Source: a virus
Length of the DNA stretch: 27,079 nt
Reading direction: 5' to 3' (one strand)
IMG/VR virus record: IMGVR_UViG_3300025645_000372
Coordinates: 1 to 27,079 of that record
Positions 5,619 through 25,886 of the stretch are shown here, piece after piece; within the stretch, counting starts at the first letter, position 1; every line of letters begins with the position of its first letter. A model generated the notes under the pieces. The model did not search any database and was not told the origin of the DNA. It saw nothing but the letters and a program-made list of their open reading frames with translations. Made by a program: the position numbers and the translations under genes.

Positions 5619-5782
5619 TATTCCATGAAGAAACTTTTAGCTTCTATCTCCTGTTTTACTTCTTCCTGAAAAGAAGTGTTTAATTTTGTAATCACTGAGT
5701 CCAGATCCCTGACTAAAGATTGGAATGTTCGTTGTTCATATTCTTTTGATGCTCTAGTTAATGATTGTACAATTTTTGCCAT
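5618..5782 (-). CDS. small hypothetical protein (54 aa)
   Basis: A short gene lies exactly between two longer ones, with TAATG overlaps at both ends (start at 5782, stop TAA at 5618-5620). The product starts MAKIVQSLTRASKEYEQ and ends EAKSFFME. It is strongly helical with a coiled-coil-like heptad character in the centre (FQSLVRDLDSVITKLNTSF). The perfect fit between neighbours and the charged amphipathic composition support a real gene. I recognise no family; an assembly or binding helix is possible. Confidence 0.65.
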   Translation of the reverse strand: MAKIVQSLTRASKEYEQRTFQSLVRDLDSVITKLNTSFQEEVKQEIEAKSFFME

Positions 5783-8097
5783 TATAATAAACCTGCTAGG
5801 CCTCCGTTTTTAAAAGTATATTTTCCATATAGTCCGGCAGTTTTTTGTCCTGTAAATGGATCCATTTCACCTCCTGCACTAAACTGTAGGGGCCCATCTG
5901 GACTGCCAATATTTTTTTGATAACCTATTGTACCTGTTGGATCTTGACTTAATAAATTATTGGCATTTGCATAAAAACCATTTTTTTGAAAACCTATTCC
6001 TAAATTAGGTTGTGTGCCTCCTTCAACTATTTCTTTAGAAAGATTGGCATTAAATGTTCCATCATTATATGTCAATGAGGGTGTTAGATCTGCATTATAA
6101 TAACTACCATCTTTAAATTTATCTTCTTGATAACTACCATCCAACCCTACTTTAAAATTATTTCCTACATCAAATGTTTTATCTACACCTAATTTATTAG
6201 TAGTGTATCCGTAATCATTGTCTCTAAAAGTAGACCCTGTTAAGACACCATCACCATAATTAAAACCTAATTTAGAATCATTTATAGTGCTATCATTAGT
6301 GTTAAGATTTGCTCTTAAATTTAAATCACCTAAATCATAATTAACTCCAGTATTTAAAATTCCTTCTTCAATATTAGGACTACTGAAGTTAAAATTACCC
6401 ATAGTATAATCGCCACTAGTATTTGATTGAGTTCCAGTTGTATCAATTGATCTAGTTAAATTTAATCCTTCTACTGGAGATATGGTTTGTTTTAATACAG
6501 CTTGATCTATAAGAGACTTAGCTTTGTCCCCATCAATCATTCCATATTTGTCTTCAATCTCAATGTCCGGATACTGTAAATTTAAATCAGTAAGATTGTT
6601 TGTGTACAAATTTTTATTTATTGTTTTAGGTCCATTGGATCTATTCATAAAAAATGGGATGTTTCTATTTTTAGAAAGAATTTGATATCTTTTAGCATTA
6701 TCGGACAGTAATTGACTTTTATCTACACGATCGGGTATCATACCGGTTAGTCGTTCATTAATTTTTTCGTTAATTTTTTTATTGACATCTACTGTAGGAA
6801 CTAAATTATTACTATTATCACCACCGTAACTTTGTTGTCTACCAGATTTGTTTTGTGAAGAGTCATAAGATCCTACAGAGTCTGCACCATATTGTGATTC
6901 AGCATCTGTTCTACCACGACCACCTTTTTTATAGTTTACTCTACCACCAAAGAAGTATCCGGCTCTACCGCCTTTAGCAAACCCAAAATCAGACCCATAA
7001 CCATAATCAGATTCTTGTTGAGTAGTTGGTCCCGAGTCGCCTTGAAAATTATTATCGCTACTACGTATATTACCTGCATTACTTATATCTATACCTTGTC
7101 CAGCTCCGCCACCACTAGTTCCAGTAGGGGTGTAGTATTTAGCAGCCTGAGCAGCCGCAGCAATCTCAGCATCTTTAGCAGCTGCATCCGCCGCATCTTT
7201 ATTTTGTTTTTGAGTTGCTTTATAAACAGCGGAAGCTTCTTGAAGTTGTTTTTTTTGAAACCCAGTTAATTCCTCTTCATCTTTTAATTTTTCATAAATT
7301 TCTAGTTGATTGGGTACGTAATTTGTTGCTTGAAAATTTTTACCTGTTAAAGTTTTAAAACCTTGTTCACCACCAAACAACATGTTTTCTCCTGCTAAAG
7401 CATTGTAGGCAGCTTTTTTATCGTCACTTAATCCTGCTATACCATACGTCCCACCACTTGGACCATTGTCATCACCCTGTGGTAAAAATTTTGTTGCCAT
7501 ATTTAAAGGAAAAGGAAGTAAACCTCCTGCAAACTTTGCAACATCACCTACTTTATTTTTAAATCTATTTAATTTACCTTTCATAAAACTATTAGGATAT
7601 TTTTCACTTGGATACATTTCATTGTTACCTAAAGTACCTTGATAACCTAGGTCCATACTATCTTCATAAGGACTATTGTATTGTCCCTGTGCCCCGTACT
7701 GTTCTTTGTTGTTCATTATCTGCTCACCATAATAATCCATTACTTCTTGAGAAGGTCTCATTCTTGAAAAAGTCTCAACTGTAGGTCCTGCATTACTAGC
7801 TTTGTTATACATAGTTTGTGCATTTGCTACTGAACCCGTAGGGTCATTTGATTGAGGATTAAAAGTTCTTACATTAACTTCACTTACAGGAGAACCATAA
7901 CCAAAAGCATTACCTGTTGGATTAAAATTATTACCACCACTATTATTAAAAGCATTTGTATTTGTTATTCCACCGGGTACCGGTGCTACAGGTTCTGGAT
8001 CTGTTGGAAGAGTAAGACCTAGTCTATATTTTTCTTGAGGAAGAAATTTATATTTTTTATAAAGTTCTTGGTCTGCTGCATTATAAAACGCTACCAT
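5782..8097 (-). CDS. large virion/ejection-type protein with GGR motifs and beta-barrel-like C-terminus (771 aa)
   Basis: Residues 1-200 are Asn/Gly/Tyr-rich and loosely structured. Residues about 255-320 form a helical, Ala-rich segment. At 375-396 there is a triple Gly-Gly element (KGGRAGYFFGG, then GGRVNYKKGGRGR), the same motif as in the protein at 3904. Residues about 550-771 consist of alternating amphipathic strands with Asn/Gly/Asp turns (for example LRANLNTND, LGFNYGDGVLTGSTF, FKVGLDGSYQEDKF, LGIGFQKNGFYANANN), ending YTFKNGGLAGLL. That pattern looks like an outer-membrane-type beta barrel. The start overlaps the upstream tail gene's stop as TAATG. A role in ejection or host-envelope contact is inferred only. 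Confidence 0.8.
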   Translation of the reverse strand: MVAFYNAADQELYKKYKFLPQEKYRLGLTLPTDPEPVAPVPGGITNTNAFNNSGGNNFNPTGNAFGYGSPVSEVNVRTFNPQSNDPTGSVANAQTMYNKASNAGPTVETFSRMRPSQEVMDYYGEQIMNNKEQYGAQGQYNSPYEDSMDLGYQGTLGNNEMYPSEKYPNSFMKGKLNRFKNKVGDVAKFAGGLLPFPLNMATKFLPQGDDNGPSGGTYGIAGLSDDKKAAYNALAGENMLFGGEQGFKTLTGKNFQATNYVPNQLEIYEKLKDEEELTGFQKKQLQEASAVYKATQKQNKDAADAAAKDAEIAAAAQAAKYYTPTGTSGGGAGQGIDISNAGNIRSSDNNFQGDSGPTTQQESDYGYGSDFGFAKGGRAGYFFGGRVNYKKGGRGRTDAESQYGADSVGSYDSSQNKSGRQQSYGGDNSNNLVPTVDVNKKINEKINERLTGMIPDRVDKSQLLSDNAKRYQILSKNRNIPFFMNRSNGPKTINKNLYTNNLTDLNLQYPDIEIEDKYGMIDGDKAKSLIDQAVLKQTISPVEGLNLTRSIDTTGTQSNTSGDYTMGNFNFSSPNIEEGILNTGVNYDLGDLNLRANLNTNDSTINDSKLGFNYGDGVLTGSTFRDNDYGYTTNKLGVDKTFDVGNNFKVGLDGSYQEDKFKDGSYYNADLTPSLTYNDGTFNANLSKEIVEGGTQPNLGIGFQKNGFYANANNLLSQDPTGTIGYQKNIGSPDGPLQFSAGGEMDPFTGQKTAGLYGKYTFKNGGLAGLL

Positions 8098-10283
8098 TAC
8101 CTCATTCCTCCTGGTGCAATATCTAATCTAAAAGTACCTAGCTTCCAGTTTTGTCCAGTGCTTGTGTTAGATACCTTCAATGCAATAGATCTTGCTCTAA
8201 GTCTTGTACTTTTAAAAGTTGTCGTTGAGGTAGTGTCAAAATTTGTAGTAATCGGTGTGCTGTTCGGATAGTTTCTAGTTGTAAAACTTACTTTAGTGTC
8301 ACCCGTTTGTTCAATAAAATCTGGTATGAATCTACTTATTCTCATAATGTATTCACCATCTCCTCTAATATCAGGTGTACCTACAGCCTGACCTGTGTTA
8401 CTTCTTTTTTGAGTAATGTCAAAATCACCTGATAAAATATTTGCTTCGATGGCGGTAACAACACCATCTGCATTTACTTGATCGGTCCCTGTTTCGTGTT
8501 CATAGTATATACTACTTCCGTCTACATTTCCAATAACATCGTAAGAGGCATTATCATCGGCGTTATAGAGTGTAGCATGAGGTTTTGCATACACAGAAGA
8601 ATCAACCCAAGCAGATCTATTTAAAGACCCTGTTGTCCAAATAGGTCTTTCATTTGACGAATCCACATAATTATAACCTACTACTCTGTCAACCGAAGTA
8701 GCATTAGCTGAACAGTAGAACCAGTTTATTTCTCCATATAAATTATTTAACCCACAAGTAACTAAATCTCTTGCTACAAAATTAATACCAAGTCCAGAAT
8801 CTACCGAGTAAACAAAATCTTCCACCAAACATGGCATAGATTTTACTTGACCGTCATAGAAGAAAAATCCATTTTCGGACATCCAATAAGCAGCGCCATC
8901 AACTTCAATACCAGCATTTTTACCAATTAAACCACAGTTGGTCCCTGCTTGTTGAAATGAGAAAGTAAAGGGTTGACCTACAAATTGCATTAAAAATATT
9001 GAGGTATCGGTCCATACATAAAGAGCATCCCGACCTTTAATAGCAGACATAATTTTAGAACCTGCAGCAAGTCTTTGAGTACCGGCTGTATTTTCTGCTC
9101 TTACAGTATACTCATTAATATTTTCTTGGTCCGAAAATCTGATAAACATATTGTCTTGTGTGGATTTATCTCCAATAGTTGTCTCTGTTCCAAAAAATAC
9201 TAGGTGTCTGTCTGGTGTCGACACTACCATGTGACGTGACGCTGTGGGAGCTCCAGATATAATTGTTGCCCGAGTAGTTAATGCATTTGAATCTGATGCA
9301 TCCCATTCAAAGCATTCTCCATTATATATAAGAGCAATTAATTTTGTACCAAAATTATCAAGAACCCATAAACCAGGGTCGAGTGTGAACTCTGTGCTTG
9401 AAGAAGCTTCACCCCAGCCGTTGTAATCCGTAATATTTGTAACTACCGCACTTGATGAGTGTGTAGTTTTTGTTGTATTGTTTACACCTCTAGCCCCACC
9501 GCTTAAAGTATTTGTCCCTGTATTATTTGCAGTGTAAGATATATCTTCTGTTCCTATTCTTATGGTCCCTGATGCCGGAAACGAGTTTGAACTAGTAAGA
9601 ACAATGTTAGTTGTAACTGTATCTGTTAAAGCTGTTGCAAGAGTTGTGGTTGCTTCTCCATTTACTACACCACCAAATAAACCTGAACTCCAACCGAAAC
9701 CAGATTCTTGTGTAGAAGACCCTACAGTATAATAACATAACACAGAAGCGGAACCGGCATTAGTTACAGGTGTGCCGGCTTCGTTAGTAGCCATTGTAAT
9801 TGTAAATGTTGTAGCAGTTGGTGTAGAAGTCACCATAAATTTCTCATCTTCAAATGTGGCATTTGTAAAAGTAGATCCAGATAACCCAGAAACAGCATCA
9901 AATAATACTATATCATTATCTAGCAAACCATGATCAGATGAAACAGTTATTGTGACTGTTGGTGACCCTGATGTACTTGTAAAATTTGCCCCGGTAATTG
10001 TAGTTCTTATAGGATGAATATCATAAAATTCACCATCTGAATAAACATAAAGAATTCTATTAGTACCAATTGCGGAATACTTTATTCCAACATTGTTATC
10101 CCAGTTATGTATGGCTCTTGCAGCACCAGTTAATTTATCGGCACCTAATTGTTCCCAACCACCTATTTTCTCTGGTGTGCCATATCTAAAACGTACGTTA
10201 TCTCCATCAAACCACTGACCTTCAGCGCCTGTTTCGGTAACTTGTTTATTGAATCCTGGAGCAAAACCTAATTTTTGTAACAT
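8097..10283 (-). CDS. tail nozzle/tube protein (T7 gp12- / P22 gp10-like stabilisation protein)
   Basis: This 728-residue protein begins LQKLGFAPGFNKQVTETGAE, with a WFDGDNVRFRYGTPEKIGGW region as in phage tail tubular B and packaged-DNA stabilisation proteins. The C-terminal two thirds keep further family blocks: RFSDQENINEYT, an NTAGTQRL..GSKI block, LYVWTDTSIFLMQFVG, CGLIGKNA and YWMSENGFFFYDG. Residues about 211-283 hold an inserted beta domain (FPASGTIRIGTEDISYT, then RGVNNTTKTTH) also found in two other virion proteins here. The family forms the distal tail tube or nozzle that stabilises packaged DNA. It lies after a 70-nt gap holding a candidate promoter and precedes the 771-residue protein. 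The identification rests on remembered family motifs. Confidence 0.85.
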   Translation of the reverse strand: MLQKLGFAPGFNKQVTETGAEGQWFDGDNVRFRYGTPEKIGGWEQLGADKLTGAARAIHNWDNNVGIKYSAIGTNRILYVYSDGEFYDIHPIRTTITGANFTSTSGSPTVTITVSSDHGLLDNDIVLFDAVSGLSGSTFTNATFEDEKFMVTSTPTATTFTITMATNEAGTPVTNAGSASVLCYYTVGSSTQESGFGWSSGLFGGVVNGEATTTLATALTDTVTTNIVLTSSNSFPASGTIRIGTEDISYTANNTGTNTLSGGARGVNNTTKTTHSSSAVVTNITDYNGWGEASSSTEFTLDPGLWVLDNFGTKLIALIYNGECFEWDASDSNALTTRATIISGAPTASRHMVVSTPDRHLVFFGTETTIGDKSTQDNMFIRFSDQENINEYTVRAENTAGTQRLAAGSKIMSAIKGRDALYVWTDTSIFLMQFVGQPFTFSFQQAGTNCGLIGKNAGIEVDGAAYWMSENGFFFYDGQVKSMPCLVEDFVYSVDSGLGINFVARDLVTCGLNNLYGEINWFYCSANATSVDRVVGYNYVDSSNERPIWTTGSLNRSAWVDSSVYAKPHATLYNADDNASYDVIGNVDGSSIYYEHETGTDQVNADGVVTAIEANILSGDFDITQKRSNTGQAVGTPDIRGDGEYIMRISRFIPDFIEQTGDTKVSFTTRNYPNSTPITTNFDTTSTTTFKSTRLRARSIALKVSNTSTGQNWKLGTFRLDIAPGGMR

Positions 10284-10304
10284 ATAAAAACCTTTTTATT
10301 AGGT

Positions 10305-10331
10305 GTTATATCAGATTGTTGATAAATTCAA
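10305..10331 (-). promoter_or_regulatory. candidate sigma70 promoter with extended -10
   Basis: In the 70-nt gap upstream of the tail nozzle gene, the minus strand reads TTGAAT, a 15-nt spacer, then TGA-TATAAC. The TG one base before the -10 hexamer makes an extended -10 element, which can offset the short spacing. It would let the nozzle gene be transcribed independently of the AT-rich oxygenase cassette. In such AT-rich DNA chance matches are common, so support is modest. Confidence 0.35.
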
Positions 10332-10353
10332 CAGGTTTAAAACTCTGTTAACG

Positions 10354-10824
10354 CTAAAAATAGTTTATATTAATGTTAAAACGACATTTTTTATCTGTGC
10401 AATTTGTGCTTTGATGTGGTTGATTTGAATCAAATAATAAAATTCTATTACTTATAGACTGTATAAATTTATCTTTTATCCATGTGCCACCATCACATGT
10501 GTTTATATAAAACACAGCTCCATTATGTTTAAATGGAAAATCAATATGTTCGTTATATTTAATAATTTCTTTAGTGCTTGGAAAACAATTAACTTTTACT
10601 CTTAACAATGTAGATACTTTTAATTTATCTAACACAGGAACTATTAAATCAAAATATCTGCTTTTTTCTTTTTTTTCATTAAACAACTCATGAGTAAAAT
10701 AAAAGTCTTTGTCACCTTTATGTGCAACATTATTTTTAAAATAGTAGGGAATGTGATTGCTCATCATAACTGAACTAAGATTTTCAAAGTCTTTTTGTGA
10801 TATAAAATTTTCTCTAATTTTCAT
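10354..10824 (-). CDS. 2OG-Fe(II) oxygenase, HxD type (156 aa)
   Basis: The protein starts MKIRENFISQKDFENL. It carries the complete facial triad of the 2-oxoglutarate/Fe(II) dioxygenase superfamily: H93-x-D95 in NEHIDFPF, distal H137 in FDSNQPHQST, and the 2OG-binding Arg148 near the C-terminus (CRFNININYF). The block GAVFYINTCDGGTWI between them matches the beta strands of small oxygenases common in marine T4-like phages. It is probably a hydroxylase acting on a protein or small molecule, with unknown substrate. It is the last gene of a cassette with four more oxygenases and a sulfotransferase, starting 2 nt after the upstream stop (TAGTAATG). The DNA is markedly AT-rich. Confidence 0.85.
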   Translation of the reverse strand: MKIRENFISQKDFENLSSVMMSNHIPYYFKNNVAHKGDKDFYFTHELFNEKKEKSRYFDLIVPVLDKLKVSTLLRVKVNCFPSTKEIIKYNEHIDFPFKHNGAVFYINTCDGGTWIKDKFIQSISNRILLFDSNQPHQSTNCTDKKCRFNININYF

Positions 10825-10826
10825 TA

Positions 10827-11408
10827 CTATTTAATTCTAAAGTTATAAGCTAAAGATATTCTTGGTTTATTAGATTTATTTTGTTGGACCCCATGCATTA
10901 GATTAGATTTAAATATAACTAGTAGCCCTTCTTTAGGAATTACTTTAAATTCTCTCCAAGTAAAAGGATTATTTTTTATATAAACACGTTTTATGCCTTT
11001 AGGTTCAGGGGAAATAAATCTTAAATGTCCACAATCTTTAGGTGTTGATAAAAAATAAACAGCAGATATTTCATTTCCTTCGTGATCATGGGCTTCTTGA
11101 TAGTCATTTTTATTATAATAATTAAACCAACTTAATTCACAAAACATTTTTTTATCTGTATACCCAAGTTTATCCGCAAACACTTTGACCTCATTAAATA
11201 TCCAACTATGTAAGTCATCAAATTTTTTGTTTTTATGTAGGTTATTTGTTTGGCAAGTATTATAAACTGTGGCATCCCAATTATCTCCTCCACATTTAAT
11301 TTTATTTTTAAGAACTTTACATTCTTTTATTAATTTATCTTTCATAGTTTTATGGTTAGGGTTTTCACTAAATCCAACAGGTGTTATAAATATTCCTTCT
11401 ATTTTCAT
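10827..11408 (-). CDS. 2OG-Fe(II) oxygenase, HxH type (193 aa)
   Basis: I chose the ATG at 11408, which overlaps the sulfotransferase stop as ATGA, over an in-frame TTG two codons upstream. The motif QEAHDHEGNEISAVYFL (His107, His109) is followed by IFKSNLMHGV (His172) and PRISLAYNFR (Arg183). This matches the putative 2OG-Fe(II) oxygenase family known as TIGR02466 / 2OG-FeII_Oxy_5, in which H-x-H replaces the usual H-x-D. It is therefore a probable Fe(II)/2OG hydroxylase of unknown substrate. It shares architecture with the 181-residue oxygenase at 12757, so the two may be old paralogues. Fe coordination by this variant is assumed from the family. Confidence 0.85.
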   Translation of the reverse strand: MKIEGIFITPVGFSENPNHKTMKDKLIKECKVLKNKIKCGGDNWDATVYNTCQTNNLHKNKKFDDLHSWIFNEVKVFADKLGYTDKKMFCELSWFNYYNKNDYQEAHDHEGNEISAVYFLSTPKDCGHLRFISPEPKGIKRVYIKNNPFTWREFKVIPKEGLLVIFKSNLMHGVQQNKSNKPRISLAYNFRIK

Positions 11409-12154
11409 GACCAAAGATAATTATCTATTTCCTCACATTTATTTAACATATCTTTATTTAAAAAGTTTGATTCTTTACGTAACTGTATTCCATCTTCGTG
11501 AATTAAATGCATGTCATCTATGTTACACTGTTTGTCTTCATATAAAACATTGTTAATATTTAATTGTTGTAGTTTATATTCTACAGGTTTGTATTCAATA
11601 TTTAAAAAATTAAATATATTTTTTACCGTGTCATTTGTACTCTCAACTAAGTCTTTATAATTAATTATTATTTTGTCCTCGTCCGAAGACATTAAATTTT
11701 TAATTGATTCAATGTTGTTTGTTAAAACTGTATTTTTATTTAATAAACCTTCTAAATACTTTGATCTATTATCTTCTTTACATATTGAAGCAAATGAATT
11801 TAAAATTTCTTTCATAGGTCTTTTTAATATAATAAATTTATTTTTATTAAACAAAGTATTAATTATATTAAGATTAAACTCTTGGCCCCAAGATGATCTA
11901 TCAATTACATAGTCACAATCCCAGTGACTATAATAAGAATCAAAAACAGATCTGACAACGTTTTCTAAAGATTTATGATCTGGAAAATTTAAAAACTTTT
12001 CATCTCTTTTTAATAAAAATAAACTATTAAATATTTCTGGTAATAAACTATTTGCTGTTGTTTTTACATTTTCGTGTTGATTTAATAATACAGCTAATAA
12101 AGTATTACCACATCTAGGTAATGCAGTTAGAAAAAAATATTCTTTAGCAGTCAT
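11405..12154 (-). CDS. sulfotransferase (PAPS-dependent type, 249 aa)
   Basis: The N-terminus FFLTALPRCGNTLLAVLLN (residues 7-25) has the 5'-phosphosulfate-binding loop of sulfotransferases (PRSGST-like, here PRCGNT). Residues 107-123 (FIILKRPMKEILNSFAS) form the 3'-phosphate-binding block, with Arg112 and Ser120 at the canonical eight-residue spacing. The remainder is helical with little family signature, as usual. The enzyme should transfer sulfate from PAPS to a hydroxyl or amine on a glycan, protein or small molecule; the acceptor is unknown. It sits inside a run of five 2OG oxygenases, overlapping its upstream neighbour by 11 nt and its downstream neighbour by 4 nt. Oxygenase-made hydroxyls could be the acceptors, but this is a guess. 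Confidence 0.85.
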   Translation of the reverse strand: MTAKEYFFLTALPRCGNTLLAVLLNQHENVKTTANSLLPEIFNSLFLLKRDEKFLNFPDHKSLENVVRSVFDSYYSHWDCDYVIDRSSWGQEFNLNIINTLFNKNKFIILKRPMKEILNSFASICKEDNRSKYLEGLLNKNTVLTNNIESIKNLMSSDEDKIIINYKDLVESTNDTVKNIFNFLNIEYKPVEYKLQQLNINNVLYEDKQCNIDDMHLIHEDGIQLRKESNFLNKDMLNKCEEIDNYLWS

Positions 12155-12764
12155 GTGGTAAACCTATAAATGCTCTTTTATCAAACTTATTTTCTTCTGC
12201 TTTTTTTGTGCCTTTTATATTGTAGTGTAAAAATACTTGCACACACCAATTTCCATAAAAAACTTCTCTCCAATGCTCAATTTTTTCACCGTTGTATATC
12301 ATTAAATCCCCCATTTTTAAATTTATAGGGATTCCTTTTAATCCTGTTTTACCTGATGGTTCTACAAATATAGGCCACTTCTTGTCTTGAAATAAAGTTA
12401 AGGTTGCAGATATTTCACAACTGTATCTGTCTTTATGTCGTCCCAATATATCTCCATGTTCATATATTCTTGTATAAGAGTATGTTGGAACAATTTCTTT
12501 TTTTATTTTATTTTCTATTACAGATTTCATTCTTACTAATAATATTTCCATAGCAGTGTCGGAATAATGGTTATAAGAAAATGGAACTTGACCATCGCCA
12601 AAAGAACCCCAACCTAAATTGTCTCTTCCAATCATTTTTTTATTATGTAATCTTTGTGATACCTGTCTTTTAAGCATAAGGTATTCTGCTGCAAATTTAC
12701 AGATATCCTCTGAAACTGCTTTCTTAATAACTAAATAATTATCTTTCTTAAATTTTTTACTCAT
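12144..12764 (-). CDS. 2OG-Fe(II) oxygenase, HxD type (206 aa)
   Basis: The double-stranded beta-helix motifs are visible: RIYEHGDILGRHKDRYSCE, with His110 and Asp112 as iron ligands, and MIYNGEKIEHWREVF with distal His164. The strand FLHYN follows at about 178-182. The Arg that binds 2-oxoglutarate is less obvious than in the neighbours (Arg166 is too close to the His; Gln176 lies near the expected place), so cosubstrate binding may differ. I recognise the RHKDR...CE and HWRE patterns from marine phage and alphaproteobacterial oxygenases. It overlaps the upstream oxygenase by 8 nt (ATGAGTAA) and the sulfotransferase by 11 nt. The substrate is unknown. Confidence 0.8.
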   Translation of the reverse strand: MSKKFKKDNYLVIKKAVSEDICKFAAEYLMLKRQVSQRLHNKKMIGRDNLGWGSFGDGQVPFSYNHYSDTAMEILLVRMKSVIENKIKKEIVPTYSYTRIYEHGDILGRHKDRYSCEISATLTLFQDKKWPIFVEPSGKTGLKGIPINLKMGDLMIYNGEKIEHWREVFYGNWCVQVFLHYNIKGTKKAEENKFDKRAFIGLPHDC

Positions 12765-13302
12765 ACCTCATATTAAAAGCTAATGTATATCTTGGATCTT
12801 CATCTTTTACAACATCTACTAAATGCATTTCATTAGAATTAAAAATAACTATTCTACCTCTCTTAGGTTGTATGGCCCCTTTAAAATTTACAAAATAAGT
12901 TCCTGGTTTTTTATTTGAAAAATATATGTTTCCACTAATGCTATCCCAATTTCCTACTATATGATTATGTTTTTGAATATAATCATTTTTATTTAATCTG
13001 TTTCCCCATGCATCAATTAATTCAATTGTATTAATATTATTTCTAGCTATAGATATAAATTTAAATAAGTAAGGATTAATAAATTTAGTTATTGTTTCAA
13101 AATCTTTGTCATTTATAAAATGATTCCAAGAGGTCATTTCTCCTTTAACATTAGTTCTTTTAGTCATCGATGAAATTAAATTTTTTTCTATTTTATTTTC
13201 TAAAGAAGACAAAACTTTTTCATTAGTATAATCTATAAATAAAATCTTATCTTTTATTATACCCCAATTAATTTTATTTTTATTACCACCTATTAGTCTC
13301 AT
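12757..13302 (-). CDS. 2OG-Fe(II) oxygenase, HxH type (181 aa)
   Basis: The C-terminal half shows the TIGR02466 / 2OG-FeII_Oxy_5 pattern. A Trp-Gly-Asn stretch (DAWGNRLNKNDYIQKHNH) contains His112 and His114, followed by SISGNIYFSNKKPG, the block PKRGRIVIFNSNEMH with His160, and DPRYTLAFNMRYE with Arg171. The N-terminal part (about 20-90) is helical and variable. It is a probable Fe(II)/2OG hydroxylase; the substrate cannot be deduced. It begins 2 nt after the stop of the upstream oxygenase (TAATTATG) and overlaps the next gene by 8 nt. Base composition is extremely AT-rich; bases 13201-13260 contain only 9 G/C. Confidence 0.85.
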   Translation of the reverse strand: MRLIGGNKNKINWGIIKDKILFIDYTNEKVLSSLENKIEKNLISSMTKRTNVKGEMTSWNHFINDKDFETITKFINPYLFKFISIARNNINTIELIDAWGNRLNKNDYIQKHNHIVGNWDSISGNIYFSNKKPGTYFVNFKGAIQPKRGRIVIFNSNEMHLVDVVKDEDPRYTLAFNMRYE

Positions 13303-13304
13303 AA

Positions 13305-13904
13305 TTATTTAAACTGTGGCCCTAGTCTCCACATGACAGCAGAATATCTAGTTCCTTTTGTTACGGGTTCTACTTTGTGATTTAAAAAAGAAGGAAATAC
13401 AATAATACTTCCTACTGTATCTAGTTCTTTAACTTTGTGTTTTATTAACTTGCCATTATCATCTATCCACTGCAACATAAAATCACCACCTTTATAATCT
13501 TTTGGATCATTTAATAAACAAGACATTGATAGTTTTCTTTGTTTGTTATTAAAGTGTTCGTCTTTGTCTTTTATAGTTTCTTGAAACATATCATAGTGCC
13601 AATTATAAAACCCATTTTTCTTGTAACTTGTAAACTGTATGTTTTCATTCCAGTCTGTATCAAAATTCCAACCAGCTTTTTCATTTGCATAATTAACTGC
13701 TTGATTAAATATATTATAAATCCACTGATCCTTTAACCAAGTTACTTTGGAATCTCTAATTTTTTTATTTACTTTCTTTTTATTTTTTTGCATTCCTATT
13801 GTGCCGGAACCTAATTTTTTATCTACACCTAATTTAATTATTTTTTTACAGTCTTCTGGACTTATAAGGTTTTTGAAGTACCAATACTTATATTTTAAAT
13901 ACAT
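13305..13904 (-). CDS. 2OG-Fe(II) oxygenase, prolyl-4-hydroxylase-like (199 aa)
   Basis: This is the clearest oxygenase of the set. NGFYNWHYDMF gives His103-x-Asp105, IIVFPSFLNHKVEPV gives His176, and TKGTRYSAVMW gives Arg186 with Ser188. These are the metal and 2OG ligands in the order and spacing of P4H/PKHD-type hydroxylases. The N-terminal YWYFKNLISPEDCKKIIKLG (about 7-26) is the typical start of such enzymes. It is the first gene of the accessory cassette, 23 nt downstream of a tail-associated gene, with an SD-like AGAAAG. A protein or peptide hydroxylase acting on a virion or host target is possible. Start and frame are secure. Confidence 0.88.
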   Translation of the reverse strand: MYLKYKYWYFKNLISPEDCKKIIKLGVDKKLGSGTIGMQKNKKKVNKKIRDSKVTWLKDQWIYNIFNQAVNYANEKAGWNFDTDWNENIQFTSYKKNGFYNWHYDMFQETIKDKDEHFNNKQRKLSMSCLLNDPKDYKGGDFMLQWIDDNGKLIKHKVKELDTVGSIIVFPSFLNHKVEPVTKGTRYSAVMWRLGPQFK

Positions 13905-13927
13905 TTAATATCTTTCTAAAATGATAA

Positions 13928-14425
13928 CTAACTTATAACCTCCCAAGCATTACTTGTAAAGTTATATTTATAATAGTTATCATCACTGGGGTCATCTGCT
14001 TTAGATCCTTTCCAAGTTACTAAATCTTCATCCCAATTAAATTCCCACCAAAATGTATCATCACCTACAGTATAACTTTGACCACTATCAGGTACAAAAC
14101 CTTCTGGTGGTAACCAATCTAATGTATCCAGAGTTGTATAATCATTTCTAAGCCAACTAGGAAAAGGTTGTGGGTTTACAAATCTATCTTCATCAGCAAG
14201 ATAAATATCTCCTGGTTTTGCATACCTTCCTCTAAAAGATCTACTAAAAGAAGTCTGTAACCAATAACTGTTGTCAGTTCCCCAAAAATTATTACACCAA
14301 GTTACCCCATCTTCGTGTTTATCATTTTCTCCTAAAGGACCATTTGAAGTTTCAACATTATTATCAACAACACAAACTCTTTTAACTTCATTTGTTGTTG
14401 AATCTATTTCACAAAAATTTGCCAT
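13928..14425 (-). CDS. small tail-associated protein, marine phage NFCEID/PFPSW family (165 aa)
   Basis: The pattern is an N-terminal FCEIDSTTNEVKRVCVVDN, then a block with LQTSFSRSFRGRYAKPGDIY, then RFVNPQPFPSWLRND. I recognise this from a family widespread in marine T4-like phages, with an FA..D..N.V..V.VV start, W.QTSYN, RG.YA..G..YD and P.PFPSW. Those proteins are usually encoded beside tail-fibre genes, and their exact role is unknown. Here it follows the polyglycine adhesin-like gene by 2 nt (TAATTATG) and precedes the oxygenase cassette. The C-terminus is rich in Trp, Asp and Tyr. A role as a tail-fibre or receptor-binding accessory is inferred. Confidence 0.75.
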   Translation of the reverse strand: MANFCEIDSTTNEVKRVCVVDNNVETSNGPLGENDKHEDGVTWCNNFWGTDNSYWLQTSFSRSFRGRYAKPGDIYLADEDRFVNPQPFPSWLRNDYTTLDTLDWLPPEGFVPDSGQSYTVGDDTFWWEFNWDEDLVTWKGSKADDPSDDNYYKYNFTSNAWEVIS

Positions 14426-14427
14426 AA

Positions 14428-15300
14428 TTAATTATACCATAGCCCTTGTGTTACCCAATAGTAAACATCATTACTAGACCAAATACCACTCACTGGTGGA
14501 TTAGTTTGTGTAAAACCTACTTCTCTTACTATAACTCTTCCAGAACCTCCCGATCCTCCTGAAAATTGACCTGGAGAAGTTCCTCCTCCACCGCCGCCAG
14601 TGTTAGCTTGTCCGGATTGATTTCTTCCGCCTCCGCCACCTTGACCACCTGGGCCTGGAGATGCAGAGAAGCCACCGCCACCGCCACCGCCAGCTAAAAA
14701 AGTTCCTGAATCTGGAAAACCGCCTGGAATTGTTTTACCATCACCACCAGCAGCTTGACTGTCCGTACCGCCAGATTCTCCCGCACCTCCGCCACCACCA
14801 TAAGTTTGTGGTGTTCTTCCTGAGCCTGAGTTTCCAAATCCAAAAGATCCTGAATTACCTGGTTGTGAAGGTTGAGTTGCTCCGAAGCCACCTTGTCCCC
14901 GGCCGCCTCCGCCACCGGATCCTCCTGTAGTTCCAGTACTAGCATATCCACCACCTTGACCACCGGCCTTAGCAGTTAATGAAGCACCTGGAAAAGCTGA
15001 ATCGCTTCCACCGCCACCGATTGTAATAGGTGAAGGGGATTGTGGAGAAGTAAATGTAGCTGGAGAAATAATCATGCCTCCTGCGCCTCCGCCTGATGAT
15101 CCATCTGTGTAGGTTTGAGATCCACCACCAGCGACCATTACAATTTCTAAATCTGTATATCTAGAATCACTAGTCCAAGTCCCGCTTGATGTAAAATTAC
15201 TTATAATATCTGGAAGGTTTACTTCTGATCCTCCGTTTTCAGGACCGACAACACCACCGTTGCTTACTTGACCTCCAATTGTGCCAATAAAATCTGACAT
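14428..15300 (-). CDS. polyglycine-rich tail adhesin-like protein (290 aa)
   Basis: Residues 33-60 carry the head of the known glycine-rich domain: ISNFTSSGTWTSDSRY, then LEIVMVAGGGS. From about 56 to 258 the sequence is dominated by Gly runs with Ser, Pro, Gln and Asn, then ends GRVIVREVGF, which closes such domains. The last about 30 residues (SGIWSSNDVYYWVTQGLWYN) are aromatic. This layout resembles phage receptor-binding adhesins, in which polyglycine-II helices pack into a sandwich displaying recognition loops. Its place between fibre-like genes and the PFPSW-family gene fits. The DNA gives strong spurious open frames on both strands because of its GGN codons; only this frame has gene-like ends. 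Confidence 0.8.
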   Translation of the reverse strand: MSDFIGTIGGQVSNGGVVGPENGGSEVNLPDIISNFTSSGTWTSDSRYTDLEIVMVAGGGSQTYTDGSSGGGAGGMIISPATFTSPQSPSPITIGGGGSDSAFPGASLTAKAGGQGGGYASTGTTGGSGGGGGRGQGGFGATQPSQPGNSGSFGFGNSGSGRTPQTYGGGGGAGESGGTDSQAAGGDGKTIPGGFPDSGTFLAGGGGGGGFSASPGPGGQGGGGGRNQSGQANTGGGGGGTSPGQFSGGSGGSGRVIVREVGFTQTNPPVSGIWSSNDVYYWVTQGLWYN

Positions 15301-15312
15301 ATGGATTACCCC

Positions 15313-15678
15313 CTACGCGTCGTTTAGGATTTCAAAATTAACAACACAAGTTAAATCGCCATTAGCACTTGCTCCACCTTCTAAGGTGTCACCTTCTTCA
15401 AGATATAAGGCTGAATTTCTATCTATGACTACTAAAGTTGAATCTGCTGGAACCGCTACTGTTGATGCGAATGCTATAGCTGATCCACCTGATTTTTTTA
15501 GAAACAGTGAAACGTTTGCTGATGATGATCCATCAATATTTCCTACTATAATACTGTTAACTTTTACAAGTGTATCTGAAGCGGCTACTAAAATATCATC
15601 TGTAAGAGTAGTAGTTAATGCGTGAGTAACTGACTCACCTGTTATTGATGTTACGTTTACTAAATTTGGATTTGCCAT
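15313..15678 (-). CDS. small beta-rich virion protein (121 aa)
   Basis: The protein starts MANPNLVNVTSITGESV. It has many alternating beta strands and a regular VKVNSIIVGNIDGSSSANVS segment, followed by FLKKSGG and LYLEEGDTLEGGASANGD. The overall pattern is that of small beta-sandwich virion proteins encoded near tail genes. It resembles the 111-residue protein at 5283 in its central strands. It lies 12 nt upstream of the polyglycine adhesin gene, which has a GGGGG-containing SD. It is probably a fibre-associated or tail-decoration protein; no specific function can be assigned. Confidence 0.75.
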   Translation of the reverse strand: MANPNLVNVTSITGESVTHALTTTLTDDILVAASDTLVKVNSIIVGNIDGSSSANVSLFLKKSGGSAIAFASTVAVPADSTLVVIDRNSALYLEEGDTLEGGASANGDLTCVVNFEILNDA

Positions 15679-15698
15679 AATTTTTTCCTATATTGTTT

Positions 15699-16424
15699 TT
15701 ACCCGAAAAGCATTGCCATTGCAATAGCTTTTCCTGTTGATGTTTTAGTATTTATTTGTGTCTGAATAGCTGAAGTCACGCCATTTACATAGCCTATTTC
15801 AGTACTAGTAGTAGTTGCTGCAGAAACGTCTCCACTACCATCAGAAACCAATGCTCTTGATGTTGTTAAATTTGCCATTTTGCTAAAAGCAATTGCAGCA
15901 CTAGCTTTAATATCTGCATCTACAATATTTGTAATTGTATTGTTGTCAGAATCAATACTTTTGTTTGTTAAAGTTTGTGTTCCAGTAATGGTTGCCATTC
16001 CAACATCAATAACTCCGGTGTTTGTTGCAACACCATCAAGATAGATAAGTTTGTATCCTTTGTCGGTTGTTGAAAAAGTAACAGTTGCACCTGAACCGGA
16101 TGCAGCTTTTAATTGTAATGTTTCTGCACCAGTAGTTCCGTTTTTAATAATGTAAAAAGTTTCTGTAAGAAGAGGAAATGTTAAAATTCTTGATCCTGTA
16201 AGAGCACCTGTTAATTCTATAACTCTTTGTTGAGCAGTACCTGTTAAAGCACCATCTACAATAGTTAAAGCTGTAGTCCCTGATCCTGCAACAGCTAAAC
16301 TTAAAACACCACCTGTTAATTGTTCGATTAAACTTAAATTTGCGTTAGTTTTTGTTCCCCAAGTACCGGCGTTTTCACCAGTTGCCATTAGCTCTAAACC
16401 AAGGTCTGTAAATGTTGATGCCAT
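15699..16424 (-). CDS. tail fibre-like protein (241 aa)
   Basis: The start MASTFTDLGLELMATGENAGTW followed by GTKTNANLSLIEQLTGG is the typical N-terminus of many marine phage tail-fibre proteins. A Thr/Gly/Ala-rich beta region follows. The segment GTQTLTNKSIDSDNNTITNI (about residues 149-168) is a widely seen fibre motif, then helix-like DADIKASAAIAFSKM and a C-terminal region ending GKAIAMAMLFG. The expected role is host recognition or fibre attachment. It sits 12 nt after the repeat protein gene, with an AGGAGAAC SD. The identification is from remembered motifs. Confidence 0.8.
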   Translation of the reverse strand: MASTFTDLGLELMATGENAGTWGTKTNANLSLIEQLTGGVLSLAVAGSGTTALTIVDGALTGTAQQRVIELTGALTGSRILTFPLLTETFYIIKNGTTGAETLQLKAASGSGATVTFSTTDKGYKLIYLDGVATNTGVIDVGMATITGTQTLTNKSIDSDNNTITNIVDADIKASAAIAFSKMANLTTSRALVSDGSGDVSAATTTSTEIGYVNGVTSAIQTQINTKTSTGKAIAMAMLFG

Positions 16425-25454: not shown

Positions 25455-25886
25455 TTAAAATTCGTGGTATATGTCTTTAGGGTTATCCACGGTCGCTAAA
25501 ACTTCATCATCATTCAAAAGTCTTATCTCACCCCCATCTATTTTAATTCGTGATCCGGCGTATCTTGCAAAGATAATCCAATCACCTTTTTTACACCAAG
25601 GACCTTCTGGGTATCTTTCTTTATCGTAGCAGTGTGGTCCCATGTCTAAAACTAAACCACAAGTTGATGCTACTTGTGATCGTTCTACTGTTTCATCAGC
25701 TAATATAATTCCACCCTTAGTCTTTTCTTTTTGTTTAAAAGGTAGAACTAAAATTCTCCAACCCGTAGGTTTAGGAGTTTTTCCTATTTCATCTGATTTT
25801 TTTTCTGTTGGTTTGACACCAACTAATGTTTTATTTGGTAGTTCAATCTTTGGTTTTTGAACCGATGTTGACAACTGTTCCTTCAT
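25455..25886 (-). CDS. phage GroES-like co-chaperonin (143 aa)
   Basis: After a 40-residue polar N-terminal extension, residues 42-136 follow the GroES/Cpn10 fold: WRILVLP, then KTKGGIILADETVERSQVAS as the flexible loop with the GGII chaperonin-binding tip, then CGLVLDMG. GDWIIFARYAGSRIKIDGG and EIRLLNDDEVLATV complete the beta barrel. The match to bacterial GroES order (GGIVL loop, GEVLAVG, KVGDIVIF..YG, E.L.....DILA) is clear. Like T4 gp31, it would cap host GroEL to fold phage proteins, most likely the capsid protein encoded nearby. The start overlaps the upstream gene by 44 nt. The extra Cys (76, 86, 98) and the insertion at about 81-98 differ from host GroES. Confidence 0.88.
   Translation of the reverse strand: MKEQLSTSVQKPKIELPNKTLVGVKPTEKKSDEIGKTPKPTGWRILVLPFKQKEKTKGGIILADETVERSQVASTCGLVLDMGPHCYDKERYPEGPWCKKGDWIIFARYAGSRIKIDGGEIRLLNDDEVLATVDNPKDIYHEF

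Follow-up and report, generated by a model that had tools for sequence, protein, structure and literature searches.

The stretch of DNA analysed here (the window) is the whole of the virus record IMGVR_UViG_3300025645_000372 from IMG/VR, 27,079 nt (~27 kb) in length. Six contiguous open reading frames (ORFs) on its minus strand fill positions 10354-13904 and make up the cassette that is the subject of this work. A sequence-only reading had taken them for six consecutive genes encoding five 2-oxoglutarate (2OG)-Fe(II) oxygenases and one sulfotransferase of the type using 3'-phosphoadenosine-5'-phosphosulfate (PAPS), and both the coordinates and the profile and fold searches agree with this:

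10354-10824, minus strand: ox1, predicted oxygenase family protein, phrog_274 E=1e-38 (labelled 'DNA endonuclease V' in PHROGs)
10827-11414, minus strand: ox2, predicted 2OG-Fe(II) oxygenase family protein, PF13759 E=2e-20, phrog_81
11405-12154, minus strand: st, predicted PAPS-type sulfotransferase, PF13469 E=1.5e-10 and PF00685 E=3e-5, both over the cut-off
12144-12764, minus strand: ox3, predicted oxygenase-fold protein, phrog_2954 (labelled 'ferrochelatase')
12757-13302, minus strand: ox4, predicted 2OG-Fe(II) oxygenase family protein, PF13759 E=1.2e-9
13305-13904, minus strand: ox5, predicted 2OG-Fe(II) oxygenase, prolyl-4-hydroxylase/PKHD-like, PF13640 E=5e-15, phrog_61

The order of transcription is ox5 (PF13640), ox4 (PF13759), ox3, st (Sulfotransfer_3), ox2 (PF13759) and ox1. 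The genes had been described as mostly overlapping, which holds for three out of five junctions (8-11 nt), the other two being 2-nt gaps. The cassette is located on the same strand as the tail genes and within their run, between adhesin-type genes (13928-16424) and the tail nozzle gene (8097-10283), as the sequence-only reading had it. The identical six-gene order is found in the contigs L089 and L090 at ~87-92% protein identity, with ox5 cut by the contig end in L089, and the ratio of nonsynonymous to synonymous substitution rates (dN/dS), calculated against a relative at ~90% identity, is 0.10-0.20 in all six genes. Because the order is kept in two contigs and dN/dS is this low, the six ORFs are real genes under purifying selection and not chance ORFs. 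Among the related loci compared, the six-gene order itself is limited to the window's own species, L089 and L090. A second IMG/VR contig is 99.96% identical to the window over 13.4 kb. The nozzle protein shares 44-48% identity with its counterparts in 023Pt_psg01 and the Pelagibacter phages HTVC027P and HTVC023P, and by sequence the window phage is assigned to the HTVC023P type of marine (SAR11-type) podoviruses; we infer its host solely from related isolates.

The five ox genes belong to the 2OG-Fe(II) oxygenase superfamily as predicted enzymes, judged by sequence for ox1, ox2, ox4 and ox5 and by a structure model for ox3. Their placement builds on Pfam matches above cut-off for ox2, ox4 and ox5, on structure for ox3, and for ox1 on a Pfam match below cut-off (PF13640, E=0.008) combined with a profile-profile comparison that joins the ox1 family to the ox5 family with 97% probability. 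ox5 also matches the PKHD hydroxylase PiuC (E=8e-8). A recognisable iron-binding triad had been claimed for each of the five. The HxD ... H form of this triad is invariant in ox1 (H93xD95 ... H137 ... R148, within its family) and in ox3 (H110xD112 ... H164, among relatives), and ox5 carries H103xD105 ... H176, with H103 and H176 invariant in 79 relatives. In ox2 and ox4 the motif is HxH ... H instead: H109xH111 ... H174 ... R185 in ox2, with ligands invariant in 40 relatives, and H112xH114 ... H160 ... R171 in ox4, with all three histidines invariant among relatives. Since this invariant motif replaces HxD ... H, the metal site of ox2 and ox4 may be unusual, possibly a three-histidine site. 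A distal arginine or lysine is expected to bind the 2OG carboxylate about 9-14 residues after the second His; an arginine is conserved there in ox1 (R148), ox2 (R185) and ox4 (R171). ox3 has the invariant arginines R99, R113 and R166, none of them at the usual distal spacing. A phage-wide search with ox4 matched HTVC027P only, so this member is rare among named phages.

A search of ox3 against Pfam gave no match. Its AlphaFold model (predicted local distance difference test score, pLDDT, 92) was compared with the PDB, and all 50 matches listed are 2OG/Fe(II) oxygenases with E-values down to 1e-7; the best among those listed is a Pseudomonas putida prolyl-4-hydroxylase with EF-Tu (E 1e-7), with human PHD2 close behind. 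The identification of ox3 as a ferrochelatase was rejected on these two results. An identification of ox1 as T4 endonuclease V was likewise rejected; its family profile found no endonuclease V among PDB sequences, and the oxygenase motif is invariant instead. Thus 'ferrochelatase' (phrog_2954, probably also phrog_3531) and 'DNA endonuclease V' (phrog_274) are labels attached to proteins predicted to have an oxygenase fold. Both occur in the marine phage records S-SM1 and S-RSM4, and 'ferrochelatase' also in S-SSM5 and S-CAM8. The evidence indicates that these labels, widespread in marine phage genomes, are wrong for the families concerned.

The st gene product has both motifs, the Pfam matches and the modelled fold (pLDDT 79) of a PAPS-dependent sulfotransferase, and is predicted to be one. 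The 5'-phosphosulfate-binding (5'-PSB) motif P13RxGxT18 and the 3'-phosphate-binding (3'-PB) motif R112 ... S120 are invariant among relatives. The nearest solved sequences and folds are the CurM-type (curacin) sulfotransferase domain and the tyrosylprotein sulfotransferases (TPSTs), which share the PAPS motifs with st but are only 14-22% identical to it, and the catalytic Glu of the TPSTs is not apparent in st. We take this Glu to lie in the GEETR segment; the segment of the phage family aligned to it lacks a Glu, and st was therefore rejected as a TPST. Relatives of st were found in 28 virus loci, mostly within the adhesin-side island and in several cases ≤60 bp from the adhesin-side gene g165. 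The only cellular match was a partial one in a single genome, a Campylobacteraceae metagenome-assembled genome. The cyanophages S-SKS1 and S-SRM01 and the single-cell virus AG-345-O18 encode members of this family that have an oxygenase 0.04 to 3.7 kb away, although at 24-28% identity to st and in other surroundings. S-SKS1 is among the nearest named phages, and a cultured sulfotransferase carrier was not found in the window's own phage group. Loci L113-L117 have a relative of st that is not part of the adhesin-oxygenase island and is found upstream of f15/tail242, which are tail genes. The sequence-only reading had proposed a pathway of hydroxylation followed by sulfation. This is unsupported; st occurs alongside differing oxygenase sets. 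Tyrosylprotein and curacin-type sulfotransferases act on hydroxyls that need no such oxygenase.

On the adhesin side the cassette is adjoined by four genes, and together with these it forms a block with sharp edges:

8097-10283, minus strand: tail nozzle / gp10-like DNA-stabilisation protein, phrog_3287 E=2e-83, the conserved flank
10297-16010, no strand assigned: exchanged block, comprising the adhesin C-terminus, the adhesin-side genes and the six-gene cassette
13928-14425, minus strand: g165, small Trp-rich adhesin-side protein, phrog_7759 E=7e-22
14428-15300, minus strand: glycine-rich-domain adhesin-type protein, PF21722 E=1.3e-11
15313-15678, minus strand: small (121-aa) protein within the exchanged adhesin block, with homologues beside adhesin-type genes in relatives
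15699-16424, minus strand: tail-fibre-type protein, phrog_31104 E=5e-44, N-terminal part conserved and C-terminal part swapped

DNA homology to relatives stops at the start of the nozzle gene, at about position 10,295. Nozzle DNA is 80-94% identical to that of the window in 33 loci, and in 31 of these homology ends within 10270-10310; cassette coverage is <15% in 31 out of the 33 loci with nozzle DNA identity ≥80%. On the other side of the block, the return of homology can be seen in 22 of these loci, and in every one it falls inside the tail-fibre gene, at 15959-16015. Locus L011 has a replaced cassette despite a nozzle that is 96% identical in protein, and L090 has the window's block, at 89% DNA identity over 10008-15745, while its nozzle beyond diverges. 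Similarity of the adhesin block and similarity of the cassette are correlated (r=0.66, p=0.001, 24 non-redundant loci), also when nozzle similarity is accounted for (partial Mantel 0.64, p=0.0005, 41 loci); the loci are only partly independent, and because similarity was scored at the DNA level, distant homology counts as zero. The corresponding values are r=0.21 for the cassette and the nozzle, ~70 bp away, and r=0.06 for the adhesin block and the N-terminus of the same fibre gene. This shows that the adhesin genes and the cassette are replaced together as one block between relatives, and the earlier assignment of the six genes to the adhesin and virion module is borne out by this joint exchange.

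Rows of oxygenases at this position were already known, and it is the linkage to the adhesin that is new here. We surveyed 49 related-phage loci in which ≥3.5 kb of sequence precedes the nozzle gene on its upstream side; the set includes near-duplicates, and for a few genes the family is tentative. In 46 of the loci this region contains two to seven oxygenase-family genes, and the remaining three have a GT9-like gene instead. Scattering of the genes in relatives, named beforehand as evidence against a linked cassette, was not seen; the families are reshuffled, yet inside the same locus. The view that only single oxygenases are known near tail-fibre genes does not stand either. Two to seven are typical of this group, and the T4-like cyanophages S-SM1 and S-RSM4 have nine in a row and the pelagimyophage HTVC008M five, adjoining homologues of the same adhesin-type gene and of g165. 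The arrangement of adhesin, g165 and oxygenases recurs in S-SM1, S-RSM4, S-SSM5, S-CAM8 and HTVC008M. As in the window, S-SM1, S-RSM4 and HTVC008M have an adhesin-type gene and a g165-like gene, and then a row of five to nine oxygenases from the same families; they differ in morphotype and gene order, and in having no sulfotransferase in the stretches read. HTVC023P (gp65-67 and gp71) and 023Pt_psg01 likewise encode several non-orthologous oxygenases, including the 'ferrochelatase' family, between adhesin-type and nozzle genes. A paper of 2022 (PMC9599517) describes the co-location of oxygenases and 'ferrochelatase' in HTVC023P-type phages and interprets the 'ferrochelatase' as a haem-enzyme partner. 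We have removed this idea because the structure predicted for ox3 is that of an oxygenase. According to the paper the oxygenases are often nearby though not adjacent; it does not mention a sulfotransferase, and its consulted passages do not propose a linkage to the adhesin. In the window a sulfotransferase is added and all six genes are directly adjacent. No account of a sulfotransferase in islands of this kind, and no paper joining oxygenase, sulfotransferase, tail fibre and cyanophage, was found in the open-licence literature, and a search there for hydroxylation of phage tails gave nothing relevant. The window locus is thus a sulfotransferase-bearing variant of the adhesin-side oxygenase island of HTVC023P-type phages.

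Other residents of the island, likewise enzymes of tailoring type, are members of the Trp-halogenase family, a carbamoyltransferase, a TylF methyltransferase, a JmjC protein and a GT9-like protein (weak, E=0.007). Trp-halogenase-family genes are located among the oxygenases in the pelagiphage-like contigs L017, L018, L030, L051, L054 and L062 (PF04820 E=6e-85 in L062), and prnA-like genes are known from cyanophages too (PMC3037559). The orientation of the oxygenases varies. They are on the strand opposite the tail genes in nine loci (L005, L013, L014, L016, L024, L026, L034, L040 and L074), where a collar-domain-type protein and a W-rich f13 protein replace g165; L050, L077 and L078 have mixed oxygenase strands, and in L051 and L062, both with g165, the cassette is inverted.

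Outside the block, the nozzle protein is 48% identical to that of HTVC027P, and its homologue in DSL-LC04 is annotated 'stabilization protein'. A second variable gene follows the nozzle (5782-8097, 771 aa); DNA homology drops from ~5816 to 7926-8094 with conserved flanks, and a PHROG search with its product gave no match. A GroES-like co-chaperonin gene (25455-25886, phrog_3188) is located upstream of the head genes, likewise in HTVC027P.

We suggest, with about even confidence, that the cassette is a set of exchangeable enzymes that modify the tail adhesin post-translationally. This proposal draws on the enzyme families, the purifying selection, the block exchange and the fact that several phage groups have such enzymes next to these same adhesin genes. 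The six genes would be the enzyme half of an exchangeable adhesin module, and they are probably made together with the tail genes, since they are on the same strand and inside the tail-gene run. The oxygenases, using 2-oxoglutarate and Fe(II), would add hydroxyl or related groups to side chains of the adhesin, and st would use PAPS to sulfate a hydroxyl, possibly of Tyr. Modification before or during virion assembly might tune receptor binding or stability, and a phage gaining a new adhesin would gain the matching enzymes alongside. The protein g165, encoded between the adhesin-type genes and the oxygenases in many relatives, is a candidate substrate by position only, since a test of its composition was negative.

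Several observations weigh against this proposal. In the composition test, loci with and without sulfotransferase, halogenase or oxygenase genes showed no difference in the Tyr, acidic-context Tyr, Trp and Pro content of g165, and g165-like proteins occur without a nearby oxygenase in Greip, CRP-143, Melnitz-3, phiPsal1 and Bellamy. Promoter motifs inside the cassette are at chance level (39 matches, 39.2 expected). The supply of PAPS is uncertain, as SAR11 is without assimilatory sulfate reduction (PMC5069961); the text of that paper calls cysDNCHIJ absent, and its table lists cysC and cysQ for HTCC1062.

Finally, the co-transfer could also reflect a role in receptor modification or superinfection exclusion. 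The enzymes would then act on the host surface, on a glycan or an outer-membrane protein, and alter or mask the receptor of the co-inherited adhesin. Such enzymes would travel with the adhesin as well, and the same linkage is predicted. Sulfotransferases, glycosyltransferases and carbamoyltransferases commonly act on glycans, and the st relative of S-SRM01 adjoins a glycosyltransferase and a nucleotide-sugar epimerase. Virion genes are, however, as a rule expressed late, leaving little time to remodel a surface, and the closest fold matches of ox3, among those listed, are protein (prolyl) hydroxylases. We consider this the main rival, although an unlikely one. The exchange with the adhesin would also follow if the block were a recombination hotspot for accessory genes, with functionally unrelated enzymes hitchhiking beside the adhesin. 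The very variable gene content and the two sharp edges fit this, but a plain hotspot should gather other accessory genes too, whereas the residents are nearly all oxygenases or tailoring-type enzymes, in several phage groups and next to the same adhesin-side genes. This makes a mere hotspot very unlikely.

A role in host metabolism or repair is quite unlikely in our view, although it has been put forward in print: 2-oxoglutarate and nitrogen signalling or AlkB-like DNA repair have been proposed for cyanophages (PMC3037559, PMC2984593), and PMC9599517 proposes an iron/haem pathway with the 'ferrochelatase' for HTVC023P-type phages. Iron transport is upregulated during HTVC027P infection, which has been linked to gp73 (PMC12753301). 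Against this, the 'ferrochelatase' is itself predicted to be an oxygenase-fold protein, the cassette is exchanged with the adhesin independently of the genome backbone, and gene content differs strongly between close relatives, unexpected for housekeeping functions. The least probable of the four alternatives is that the cassette acts on translation factors or other host proteins, in the way a bacterial prolyl-4-hydroxylase hydroxylates EF-Tu. Among the fold matches listed for ox3, the Pseudomonas putida enzyme in complex with EF-Tu ranks first, but it does so as one among hundreds of oxygenases with 10-15% identity, and if the target were a host protein, nothing would explain why the cassette is exchanged with the adhesin.

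In marine phages, 2OG-Fe(II) oxygenases count among the most frequent 'auxiliary metabolic genes', and the roles proposed for them in print are nitrogen signalling, DNA repair and iron metabolism. That they are linked to the adhesin and not to the genome backbone speaks for virion modification instead. This linkage, together with the correction of two labels, is the useful outcome of the analysis. More tentatively, and with somewhat less confidence than for the window itself, we propose that marine phages carry exchangeable, adhesin-specific systems for post-translational modification. Such a system would consist of oxygenases, sulfotransferases, halogenases, carbamoyltransferases or glycosyltransferases, would be inherited along with one particular tail adhesin and would chemically diversify its receptor-binding surface. 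If this is true, host range would be set by side chains that enzymes make and not by sequence alone, and modified amino acids, if confirmed, would add a new level of specificity between phage and host in some of the ocean's most abundant phages.

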